NCBI GenBank assembly: GCA_025458245.1
Contig: JALOSW010000005.1
Span: 1 to 37,552 of the forward strand
From: Burkholderiales bacterium
GTDB lineage: Bacteria; Pseudomonadota; Gammaproteobacteria; Burkholderiales; SG8-39
DNA: 37,552 nt
Direction: 5' to 3'
Shown here one piece after another: positions 2,795 to 7,678 of this stretch. Numbering within the stretch: position 1 is the first letter of the stretch; every line of letters starts with the position of its first letter. A program made the translations under genes and the position numbers. Under the pieces are notes generated by a model. It was not told the DNA's origin. It saw nothing but the letters and a program-made list of their open reading frames with translations, and made no database searches.

Positions 2795-2812
2795 GGGAGG
2801 GCGCCGGGTATC

Positions 2813-2898
2813 CAGAGTCCGGGAGTCGGGAGTCGGGGTTCGGAGTTCGGAGTGCGAGGTTCGGGACCTGGCCCTCGATCCTCGAGCCGCGAGCCTGG
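2813..2898. repeat. Degenerate heptamer array with inverted halves (array 1)
   Basis: The whole gap between nth and the DUF1841 gene reads in 7-nt steps. The left part (about 2814-2866) carries GGAGTCG, GGAGTCG, GGGTTCG, GAGTTCG, GAGTGCG and AGGTTCG. The right part (about 2873-2898), read on the minus strand, carries GGCTCGC, GGCTCGA and GGATCGA. The consensus in both is GGnnTCG with opposite orientation, so a transcript could fold back on itself. No spacers or coding sequence are seen. Confidence 0.8.
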
Positions 2899-2902
2899 AT
2901 TT

Positions 2903-3544
2903 TCAACCCCCGGCGTTCGTCTTCGGGCGGTACTCGCACAGATCGCGGATGAGGCACGCCGGACAGTCGGGCCTGCGCGCCTTGCACACGTACCGGCCGT
3001 GCAGGATGAGCCAGTGGTGCGCGTTCCTGCGATAGGGCTCGGGCACCACCTTCTCCAGAGCCGCCTCGACGGCGAGCGGCGTCCTGCCCGGCGCGAGCTT
3101 CGTGCGGTTCGCCACGCGGAAGATGTGCGTGTCGACGGCCATCGTCGACTGCCCGAAAGCGGTGTTGAGAATCACGTTCGCGGTCTTGCGCCCGACGCCG
3201 GGAAGCGCTTCGAGCGCGGCGCGATTCGCCGGGACTTCGCCGCCGTGGCGCTCGAGGAGGAGGCGGCTCGCCTCGACGATGTTCTTTGCCTTGTTTCGCC
3301 ACAGTCCGATGGTTCGGATGTGCGGCTCGAGTCCGGCGGCGCCGAGGGCGACGATCGCCTCGGGCGTACGCGCCACCGCGAAGAGCTTTGCCGTCGCGAG
3401 GTTCACGCTCTTGTCCGTGGCCTGCGCGGACAGCACGACTGCGACCAGCAGTTCGTACGGCGTCGTGTAGGCGAGCTCCGTGGTCGGGTTCGGGTTCGCG
3501 GCCGCCAGCCGCGCGAAGATTTCTGCGCGCTTTTGCGGGTTCAT
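2903..3544 (-). CDS. nth: Endonuclease III (DNA glycosylase/AP lyase)
   Basis: 213 aa, full family length. It removes oxidised pyrimidines from DNA and nicks the abasic site (base excision repair). The helix-hairpin-helix LPGVGRKTA contains the catalytic Lys120, and AVDTH contains Asp138; both have the same numbering as the Escherichia coli enzyme. The [4Fe-4S] loop is C187-x6-C194-x2-C197-x5-C203, also matching. The start codon overlaps the end of the upstream rsxB gene by 4 nt (ATGA), so translation is probably coupled. In enterobacteria nth also lies at the end of the rsx operon. A heptamer repeat array begins immediately after its stop codon. Confidence 0.97.
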
Positions 3545-5380: not shown

Positions 5381-6121
5381 TCAGCCTTCGAGATCGCGCT
5401 CGTCGAGCGGCCGCCAGACGCCGTTCACCAGTCCCTCGATCGGGCGGAACCGCGCCTTGTAGGCCATCTTGCGGCTGTCCTGGATCCAGTAGCCGAGATA
5501 GAGGTAAGGGAGGCCGAGCGCGCGGCAGTGCTCGAGCTGCCAGAGGATGTTGTAGGTGCCGAGGCTCGCGCTCGGGAGGTCGGGATCGAAGAACGTGTAG
5601 ACCGACGACAGGCCGTCGGACAGGAAGTCGACGATGCTCACCATCGTGAGGCGGCCGTCGTCGCGGAACTCCACGAGCCGCGTGTTCACCCGGCTCTGAA
5701 GCAGAAAGTGCGAATACTGGTCGCGGCTGTCCTGATCCATTCCGCCGCCGGCGTGGCGCGCGGCCTGGTAGCGCAGGTACAGCGCGTAGTGTTCGACGCG
5801 GAAGCGCAGCCCGAGCGTCAACGCCTGCAGATGCTCGTGCCGCTTCCACGCGCGGCGCTGGTAGCGCGCCGAGTCGAACTCCGCGACCGGAATGCGCACC
5901 GGTACGCATGCGCGGCAAGCGTCGCAGTATGGCCGGTAGGTGAAGATGCCGCTGCGACGGAAGCCGAGTCGCACCAAATCGCCGTAGAGCTCGTTGCCGA
6001 TGAGGTGGCTCGGCGTTGCGACCTGCGACCGCGCCATCTTGCCCGGCAGGTAGCTGCAGGGGTAAGGGGCCGTGACGTAGAACTGCAGTACTGCGTGCGG
6101 AAGGTCGTTCAGCTGCGACAT
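5381..6121 (-). CDS. bpt: Aspartate/glutamate leucyltransferase (N-degron pathway)
   Basis: 246 aa. Transfers leucine from Leu-tRNA to proteins with N-terminal Asp or Glu, marking them for ClpS/ClpAP. Family signs are the N-terminal PYPCSYLPG, a Cys-rich [18 protein letters not shown] block, [10 protein letters not shown], and the C-terminal acyltransferase fold with [17 protein letters not shown] and [20 protein letters not shown]. It is related to eukaryotic arginyltransferases but carries the bacterial Bpt layout. The start at 6121 overlaps the 3' end of aat by 13 nt, so the two transferases are co-translated. A longer frame upstream is an artefact of overlap with aat. Confidence 0.93.
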
Positions 6122-6816
6122 CGAGACGGCCCGAATGCTCCTTGCCACCTGCCTGGCGGCTCGGGGTAGTCTACCAACTCTGCGACCCGCCGGGCGAAGT
6201 CGGCCCGGGGAATCTCCCGCGCGCCGAGCGATTCGAGGTGCGCCGTGTGCATCTGGCAGTCGACCAGTTCGAACCCCCGGCCGGCGAGAAAGCGGGCGAG
6301 GTGCACGAAGGCGATCTTGGAGGCATCGCGCGCGCGGGAGAACATCGACTCGCCGAAGAACACGCGTCCCACCGCGACTCCGTAGAGCCCGCCCGCGAGA
6401 GCGCCGTCGATCCAGGTTTCCACGGAGTGAGCGTACCCCAGTGCGTGCAGGCGGAAGTAGGCCGCACGCATCTCCGGGGTGATCCAGGTCCCGGCCTGAT
6501 CCGGCCGGGGGGCAGCGCACCCGGAGATCACGGCCGGAAACGCGGTGTCGAGCCGCACCTCGTACTCCCGGTTGCGCAGCGTCTTCGCGAGCGAGCGCGT
6601 CACCCGGACCGCGCTCGGCACGAGCACCATGCGCGGGTCGGGGCTCCACCAGAGAACGGGCTCACCCTCCGAGAACCACGGGAAGATACCGTGCCGGTAG
6701 GCATCGAGCAGGCGTTCCGGGGAGAGATCGCCGCCTGCCGCGAGAAGACCGTTCGGGCGTACGAGCGCCTTCTCGATCGGCGGAAACGGCGCATCCCGGT
6801 CGAGCCAAGGAATCAT
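6109..6816 (-). CDS. aat: Leucyl/phenylalanyl-tRNA--protein transferase
   Basis: 235 aa. Adds Leu or Phe from charged tRNA to N-terminal Lys or Arg of proteins, creating bacterial N-degrons. Family motifs are seen in order: [95 protein letters not shown] and [16 protein letters not shown]. The length is normal. It precedes bpt on the minus strand with a 13-nt overlap, so both branches of acceptor N-degron marking are made from one transcript. Upstream of its ATG lies the second heptamer repeat array. ClpS and ClpA are not in the window. Confidence 0.97.
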
Positions 6817-6979
6817 GGAGCGGATCGGGGATCAAGGATCAGGGACCGCGGAACCGTGCAGGACGGATCGCATCCCGAATCCCGGCGCCCGCATCGCGAA
6901 TCCCGAATCCCGAATCCTGGATCCTGAATCCAGAATCCAGAATCCAGAATCCCGAATCCTGAATCCCGAATCCCGTCCC
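6817..6979. repeat. Degenerate heptamer array with inverted halves (array 2)
   Basis: The whole gap between the Rieske gene and aat is in 7-nt register. The left part holds GGATCGG, GGATCAA, GGATCAG, GGACCGC and GGAACCG. The right part (about 6890-6972) is mostly GAATCCC, GAATCCT and GAATCCA, which on the other strand read GGGATTC, AGGATTC and TGGATTC. This is the same GGnnTC-type family as the array at 2813, again with the halves in opposite orientation, so a long imperfect hairpin is possible. No coding sequence or spacer pattern. Confidence 0.85.
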
Positions 6980-7678
6980 TCAGCACCTCACCTGCTGGCG
7001 GCAATACTGGTCGAGTTCGCGCACCACCGCCTCGCCGCCCACGGCCGTGCGGACGCGCCCGCTGTGTTCCATTGCGAGCTTGAACTCGAACTTCTCGAAG
7101 AAGTCGTTGAACATCTCGCCGCCGAGCGTGCCGACTGCGAAAAGTTCGTCGGAGGCGGGTTCGTACTCGAGGAGGATCGCAGCGAGCGGCTGAGGCGCCG
7201 GACCGGCGAGCACGCGTGCGCCGTTTCCGGCGTCGTACTGGCTGTGCTCCGAGCAGCAGTGGATGACCTGCCTGAACTTCGAGGTCGGGGTCGCCTCGCC
7301 CCGATATGCGATGAAGCTGATGTCCTTCGTGGGATACGTGAGCTTGTGCGCGCAGATCGCCGAGTACGCGACGATCGACTGCGCGGGCCCCGCGCCGCCT
7401 GGCCAGTCGTAGGTTTTCGCGTCGGCGGTCTTGAGGGCCGATGCCGGTCGCGCCGGCTGGCCGAGATTCACGAGAAAGCAGGGCGTCGACGCATACGGAT
7501 AGTGGAAGATGAAGTTCCGGTTCGGCGGGATCGATTTTGCGCTGATCGGCTTTCCGGCAGCGTCGACGAGTCGCGCGCGCGTGTAGCTGCGGGGCGCCGC
7601 GGTCCCCTGTGCGAACGCCGGGACGCTCGCACCCATGCAGGTCAACGCACACGCCTTGATGAACTCCCGACGCTCCAT
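6980..7678 (-). CDS. Tat-exported Rieske-type [2Fe-2S] protein
   Basis: 232 aa. The N-terminus ERREFIKACALTCMGASVPAFA|Q is a short twin-arginine-type signal peptide. The Rieske ligands are C109-A-H111 and C142-S-E-H145, followed by SQYD where Rieske proteins usually have GSxFD. The 30 residues between the two boxes are more than in bc1 Rieske proteins. There is no adjacent cytochrome b, molybdopterin oxidase or oxygenase gene, so the partner is unknown. Because the signal is not a long anchor helix, the protein may be released into the periplasm as a soluble redox carrier. Resemblance to small subunits of arsenite oxidase-type enzymes is possible from size and export, but no large subunit is nearby. 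Confidence 0.8.
   Translation of the reverse strand: MERREFIKACALTCMGASVPAFAQGTAAPRSYTRARLVDAAGKPISAKSIPPNRNFIFHYPYASTPCFLVNLGQPARPASALKTADAKTYDWPGGAGPAQSIVAYSAICAHKLTYPTKDISFIAYRGEATPTSKFRQVIHCCSEHSQYDAGNGARVLAGPAPQPLAAILLEYEPASDELFAVGTLGGEMFNDFFEKFEFKLAMEHSGRVRTAVGGEAVVRELDQYCRQQVRC

Follow-up and report, generated by a model that had tools for sequence, protein, structure and literature searches.

Facing arrays of GGATTC-type heptamers behind genes of a Burkholderiales bacterium: a candidate hairpin spacer between cistrons

The heptamer element before aat

The window (the whole stretch of DNA analyzed, 37,552 nt) contains, between aat and the gene upstream of it, a gap of 163 nt (6817-6979) that extends from the aat start (6816) to the stop of the upstream gene (6980) and is filled by two facing arms of heptamers. 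The features considered are summarized in Table 1. From its two cysteine-histidine motifs, the upstream gene presumably codes for something akin to a Rieske-type protein.

Table 1. Coordinates of the features discussed (positions are those of the window unless a locus is named)
Feature	Position	Strand	Remarks
Left arm	6822..6856	+	five GGATCnn/GGAnCCn units; arm scoring
Spacer between window arms	6857..6868	.	12 nt; register 5 mod 7
Right arm	6869..6973	-	fifteen GGATTCn-type units; arm scoring
aat, leucyl/phenylalanyl-tRNA-protein transferase	6109..6816	-	immediately downstream of the window element; Pfam PF03588 (1.1e-77)
Upstream gene	6980..7678	-	no Pfam match at 1e-3; CAHK and CCSEH motifs
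Array 1	2808..2909	.	+ arm 2808-2870, - arm 2868-2909; units GGAGTCG / GGnTTCG
Cobalamin riboswitch, G000	L100:2257-2590	-	RF00174, 66.7 bits
Cobalamin riboswitch, G001 ortholog	L254:4205-4528	-	RF00174, 59.1 bits

The sequence of the gap parses in steps of 7 nt. The earlier note on this DNA had counted about 23 consecutive units; heptamers do fill the whole gap, but only some 20 of them are clear units. The opposition of left and right units that it described was confirmed, the five on the + strand being of the GGATCnn type and the fifteen on the - strand of the GGATTCn type. The left arm (in order, GGATCGG, GGATCAA, GGATCAG, GGACCGC and GGAACCG) lies on the other strand than aat and begins 5 nt away from that gene's start codon. 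The right arm ends 6 nt from the stop codon of the upstream gene; 11 of its 15 units are GGATTC plus one base, and two are strongly degenerate. The program TRF reported this repeat at 6872-6975, with period 7 and score 124. The register of the spacer places the window element outside the common 4 mod 7 class described below. By eye, array sequence precedes the aat start codon (window:6817-6836) and no Shine-Dalgarno site is visible there.

On the strand that is sense for aat, the window element folded with a z of -3.2, to which pairing inside the long arm contributes part. The search of window positions 6500-7300 against Rfam gave nothing above the gathering score, with four matches far below it (E 0.22-0.89). 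A role as terminator, proposed in the earlier note, was not upheld, since 0 terminator-like sites (a GC stem with a T run behind it) were found at 6700-7100 on either strand, and an intrinsic terminator at the window element was thereby rejected. Array 1 of the window, in a gap (2795-2902) flanked by two - strand genes, has the same facing layout; its sense strand folded no better than shuffles (z +0.9).

The array family in the genome: orientation and placement

The window's own genome (G000) is a draft of 2.98 Mb in 267 contigs, 77 percent complete. The two-unit pattern GGATTCNGGATTC had 121 matches in it, versus 0 when the genome was read backwards, and a four-unit pattern had 57, also versus 0; three-unit runs of the GGATC type had 19 matches, yet 5 in the control. 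From 100 of the 121 GGATTCNGGATTC matches, plus the four-unit and GGATC-type matches listed, 38 loci amounting to 233 kb were fetched; these loci were chosen by the unit itself, and their gene calls, made with our own gene caller, are approximate. A cluster had to contain an arm of score 25 or more, and a score of 18 sufficed for its partner arm, as a threshold of 12 gave shuffle-level counts. This yielded 47 arm clusters, of which two were inside predicted genes and were dropped, leaving 45 elements. In order-2 Markov copies of the 233 kb, arms scoring at least 25 numbered 2 in one copy and 0-1 in six others, so that the arrays greatly exceed what chance would give.

The orientation of the 47 clusters was inward in 23, outward in 0 and restricted to one strand in 24, the latter comprising 21 single arms and three clusters with two same-strand arms (element 36 was kept in this scored class, although it appears inward-facing by eye). 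The search patterns were neutral as to arm order. A scan of the same loci that made no use of the unit gave 18 inverted clusters at period 7, all 18 with the G-rich arm on the left, versus 0-6 for every other period from 5 to 12. The inversion on which the earlier note had staked the idea of one family with a conserved layout thus recurs in 23 of the 47 clusters, the remainder being one-stranded, and array 1 faces in the same way.

Among the 569 units scored, G1 and G2 were each conserved to about 90 percent, A3 to 83 and T4 to 77 percent, while positions 5-7 were variable, with A as the seventh base in 367. The commonest units were GGATTCA (122), GGATTCG (62) and GGATTGA (48), most units conforming to GGAT[TC][CG][AG]. 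In the facing elements, the spacer between the arms showed a preferred register, 4 mod 7 in 15 of 23, with the arms abutting in 14 (binomial probability about 2e-7). The only core shared among them was a cap, GGATYSAGNNCTSRATCC, matched by 9 of the 23; a central hairpin near the arms was seen only in G063 (see below). Of 199 genomes, 8 contained the cap: G000 had 13 copies and the related genome G001 three, and none of the remaining 197 had more than one. Both arms were present at all six G000 cap loci inspected, three of which (L274, L282 and L283, the last two being variants of one locus) are outside the set chosen by the unit. One of the three G001 caps had both arms scored, one had one arm and one had none, and 0 of six outgroup caps carried arms.

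Concerning the genes on both sides, the array gaps were of the types (- -) in 25 cases, (+ -) in 10, (+ +) in eight and (- +) in one. So, divergent gaps accounted for 1/44 of the array gaps, compared to 28/101 of the other gaps of at least 40 nt (P 2e-4) and to 29/165 of all other gaps (P 0.007). This avoidance places almost all elements downstream of a stop codon, and it is thus likely that the elements sit in DNA transcribed behind at least one gene. Single arms were nearer to the gene on their 5' side in 12 of the 13 scorable cases, i.e., with the G-strand running away from that gene end (the exception was L088); this was scored where the two distances differed by more than 20 nt, leaving out five near-ties, one contig end and the two clusters inside predicted genes.

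Two side observations belong here. By eye, a terminator-like hairpin seems to stand between the facing arms in some gaps (elements 27 and 41; loci L087:6204-6261 and L099:1721-1762), and the G001 gap corresponding to the L087 case likewise holds one; in such gaps a hairpin other than that of the arms may be the one at work. A 6S RNA (RF00013; L100:3796-3977, + strand) contains in its 3' part GGGTTCAGGATTCA, conserved in G001, which is possibly a natural source of the heptamer unit, or a coincidence.

Counterparts in other genomes and RNA structure

One comparison was with G001, a species of the same genus known from a draft 89 percent complete, whose aat is 80 percent identical to that of G000. 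Its aat gap also contains two facing arms, the stronger of which is the one on the opposite side. Both neighbours were matched side by side for 36 of the 45 elements, and 35 gaps were retained after dropping element 6 (41 and 32 percent identity). Arms scoring at least 25 were found in 21 of the 35 orthologous gaps, compared to 3 of 97 other gaps of at least 40 nt in the same loci; the reversed sequences gave 8/35 at the same score, and part of the signal in G001 is thus due to composition. At score 20, the 35 gaps contained seven inward pairs, 16 single arms, one (+ +) and one (- + -) arrangement, and 10 were armless. The unit-free scan of the G001 loci gave five inverted clusters at period 7, four with a G-rich and 0 with a C-rich left arm; periods 9 and 12 gave 16 and 19 clusters, respectively. 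By eye, runs of GGACAGA/TCTGTCC and of GGCAGTC were seen in the G001 gaps of elements 8, 9, 10, 25 and 34 (L249, L243, L241, L252 and L251), where they stand beside or replace GGATTC arms at places at which G000 has GGATTC arrays.

The orthologous gaps of 10 of the 45 elements were readable in G009, an array-poor relative without any match to the three-unit pattern. Seven of them were of 22 nt or less, three of these with apparently overlapping stop and start codons; since this is the majority of the readable gaps, most arrays look like additions to tight junctions. The three other gaps were those of element 17 (49 nt, armless), element 43 (318 nt, armless) and element 12, which has facing arms also in G009. 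The latter indicates that the array type either predates the genus of G000 and G001 or arose twice. Within G000, the contigs C86 and C94 represent one locus and differ, over 349 aligned columns, by three substitutions and exactly one heptamer, which points to a recent change by a whole unit.

The heptamer unit of G000 is patchy in its distribution: of 398 genomes from the phylum, nine contained the four-unit pattern, and of 199, seven contained the three-unit pattern, G000 included in both counts; backward-control matches of the former appeared in four genomes (G374, G418, G424 and G482), and of the latter in none. Arrays of other units were looked for in 80 named aat loci (508 kb), most of them with betaproteobacterial names, the nearest aat being 73 percent identical, which suggests that G000 is betaproteobacterial too. 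Autocorrelation gave one intergenic period-7 array with strict and two with relaxed settings (L174 and L184), and the inverted scan gave one cluster at period 7 (L184), eight at period 6, three at 9, two at 10 and three at 12. By these tests, other-unit arrays are therefore rare at aat. In the part that precedes aat (up to about position 3001), L166, L184 and L202 contain facing arrays of other heptamers, namely GTTTAGT-like, GTGAACC/GTTCACC and GTGAACG/CGTTCAC (in L166 and L202 by eye only), and L174 has about seven direct repeats of GGCGTGA.

In G063, which belongs to another genus of the family, arms were facing in 5 of 11 array loci and outward in 0. A REP-like hairpin of the type GCCGCGC-nnn-GCGCGGC lies between or beside the arms in four of the 11 (L303:1858, L307:2065, L309:1976 and L312:2050), and another long palindrome, with a centre of the TTGCAAGCAACTG type, was seen by eye in L303, L306 and L310. 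Two loci were fetched from G347, a carrier of GGGAATC: L316 contains a facing pair and L315 a single - arm. The genome G473 contains about 112 CGATTCC units (GGGAATC type) at L317:2090-2878 (contig C8) and about 98 at G473:C1:326879-327563; the former run stops 25 nt short of a gene which we take to be queC-like. The small genome G260 has GGATTCn runs apparently inside reading frames (L320:2004-2036 and L322:1981-2014), presumably YggS-like and ThiC-like, respectively.

The element L100:2437-2518 occupies the variable insert of a stem-loop in a cobalamin riboswitch, and its G001 ortholog does likewise. Both inserts, as cut, were predicted to fold as a single hairpin, with the arms paired in short runs separated by 2-nt internal loops (z -4.5 and -3.1). 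By permutation, the two arms of an element resembled each other no better than arms taken from separate elements did (P 0.90 and 0.94), nor was their RNA duplex energy any different in this respect (P 0.97). So, there was no sign of compensatory co-evolution, which speaks against a hairpin maintained by selection.

Interpretation and comparison with known systems

The arrays, their layout and position, the turnover by whole units, the absence from the tight gaps of a relative and the fit of the predicted hairpin in the riboswitch are established. The explanation that we prefer, at a probability of about 0.42, is that the inverted heptamer array would be a slippage-driven hairpin spacer between cistrons. 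Heptamers would arise by slippage of units combined with fold-back (inverted) copying, an origin that would account for the inward facing and for the fixed register. The array would be either tolerated or favoured in places where transcription reaches it downstream of one gene or more. Once transcribed, the arms could fold as a ladder hairpin in which each unit contributes about 5 bp and leaves 2 nt unpaired, and this hairpin would separate the neighbouring reading frames and might protect or partition the upstream message, in the manner of REP/BIME elements without being one. A role as RNA stabiliser, which the earlier note had raised, is possible and close to this reading.

Nearly as likely is a neutral or selfish expansion of heptamers, by slippage and inverted copying wherever it does no harm, meaning away from reading frames and promoters, with the layout as a by-product. 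The single heptamer by which C86 and C94 differ, the shift of the stronger arm to the other side in the aat gap of G001, the lack of co-evolution between arms, the absence of arrays where G009 gaps are tight and the other heptamers (GGACAGA and GGCAGTC, by eye) in some G001 gaps are all consistent with it. However, the position was kept in 21 of 35 orthologous gaps, the exceptionless inward facing (among G000 clusters with two arms on opposite strands) together with the preferred register needs a specific origin or selection, and the element fits inside the riboswitch stem in two species. It is improbable, though less so than the two readings considered next, that the arms are tandem sites for a protein recognizing the heptamer, which would bind the opposed arms in opposite orientation. 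Such sites would agree with the conservation of G1, G2, A3 and T4 over the 569 units and with positions conserved between two species, whereas the variation of positions 5-7 and the different heptamers seen by eye in some orthologous gaps argue against them, and we know of no candidate protein.

A G-quadruplex element, in which the G-rich strand would form the quadruplex and modulate transcription or translation, appears very improbable. Placement and layout do match those of Xanthomonas arrays that form quadruplexes in vitro (according to the available part of Rehm et al. 2015, PMC4692102), and G2 motifs are present in 44 of the 45 elements, but a G3 motif was found in an arm of just two. With A as the seventh base of 367 of the 569 units, the G-tracts are mostly GG, and the published quadruplex idea carries over poorly, though the layout does. 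Hardly to be expected, and the least probable of all, is a mobile palindrome of the REP/BIME type moved by a REP-associated transposase. The elements are dispersed and palindromic and lie behind genes, and the GCCGCGC hairpin accompanies 4 of 11 G063 loci. Against this, no copy of that type of hairpin lay within 60 nt of an arm, either in G000 (0/8 in 233 kb) or in the G001 loci (0/11 in 241 kb). The REP-like transposase that the earlier note had proposed as a partner was likewise not supported: among 14 genomes searched (G009 and G582 being apparently one genome listed twice), Y1_Tnp had no match in four, namely the drafts G000 and G001 as well as G007 and G010, while it had matches in the other 10, including the array-poor G003, G005, G009, G015 and G021.

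The hairpin spacer can be generalized, although we regard this as doubtful, to a class of self-growing spacers independent of sequence. Facing heptamer arrays would be born at stop/start junctions with units that differ by lineage, such as GGATTCA in G000, GGGAATC in Xanthomonas and GTGAACG-, GGACAGA- or GTTTAGT-like units in other Betaproteobacteria. What would be kept is the inward facing and the 7-nt ladder (5 bp plus 2 unpaired nt), and it would be RNA structure, not quadruplexes, that makes separate cistrons of overlapping genes. If the hairpin reading is true, it describes one way in which bacterial operons gain spacers. As genes are tightly spaced or overlap at the matching places of an array-poor relative, the effect of adding an array is directly testable.

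Concerning known systems, REP/BIME elements have a short conserved core palindrome with a fixed tetranucleotide, and their hairpins protect or partition the upstream message, with a possible effect on mRNA ends. The G000 arrays resemble REP/BIME elements and REPINs as dispersed palindromes behind genes, and differ from them in being tandem heptamers and in the lack of a REP-associated transposase match in G000 and G001; beyond the cap, no shared core palindrome was seen. With respect to Rfam, the variable insert of the cobalamin riboswitch (RF00174) is occupied by one element in two species; the window element (searched over 6500-7300) matches no family. Another heptamer system is that of the TAACTGA repeats of Beggiatoaceae, with many intergenic arrays per genome next to genes (MacGregor 2015, PMC4679880); in the available part of that report they are direct repeats, with one indirect case reported, and their unit is AT-rich.

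The nearest relatives in print are the GGGAATC arrays of Xanthomonas, and the likeness to them that the earlier note had suggested is borne out by layout and placement. According to the available part of Rehm et al. 2015 (PMC4692102), these repeats, defined for working purposes by the presence of GGGAATC at least once, are dispersed and mostly intergenic, form 70 (Xcc) and 75 (Xac) inward-facing pairs, have their nearest gene on the 5' side irrespective of strand, are under-represented between divergent genes and share their context between two species in 83 percent of cases. The same part of the paper leaves the function open with a focus on G-quadruplexes, which oligonucleotides form in vitro, gives 56 and 42 percent of repeats with at least four units and intact G-tracts, compared to the G3-quadruplex motif in 2 of the 45 G000 elements, and extends the placement rule to the GGGGA(C/T)T heptameric repeats of Nostoc. 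The earlier description of the element as poorly described is only partly right, since the layout and the placement have been published for Xanthomonas, and the placement for Nostoc too (PMC4692102). None of the GGATTC arrays, the cap register or the riboswitch insertion was met in the literature listings searched. The 4 mod 7 register, the tight gaps of the relative and the riboswitch insertion are features of the G000 arrays that do not appear in the available part of Rehm et al. (PMC4692102). GGGAATC itself does not occur in the window element, and one of the 45 elements (number 26) contains it. Since the G000 arrays thus fall outside the GGGAATC definition and lack the G-tract feature, we call them a variant, and not a member, of the Xanthomonas repeats, as these are known from the part of PMC4692102 available. 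What both have in common (PMC4692102, same part) is dispersed, G-rich tandem units of 7 nt, inward pairs, the gene-end rule and the avoidance of divergent gaps, and the G000 lineage, in which this Xanthomonas-like layout goes with hardly any G3 tracts, uncouples the layout from the G-quadruplex.
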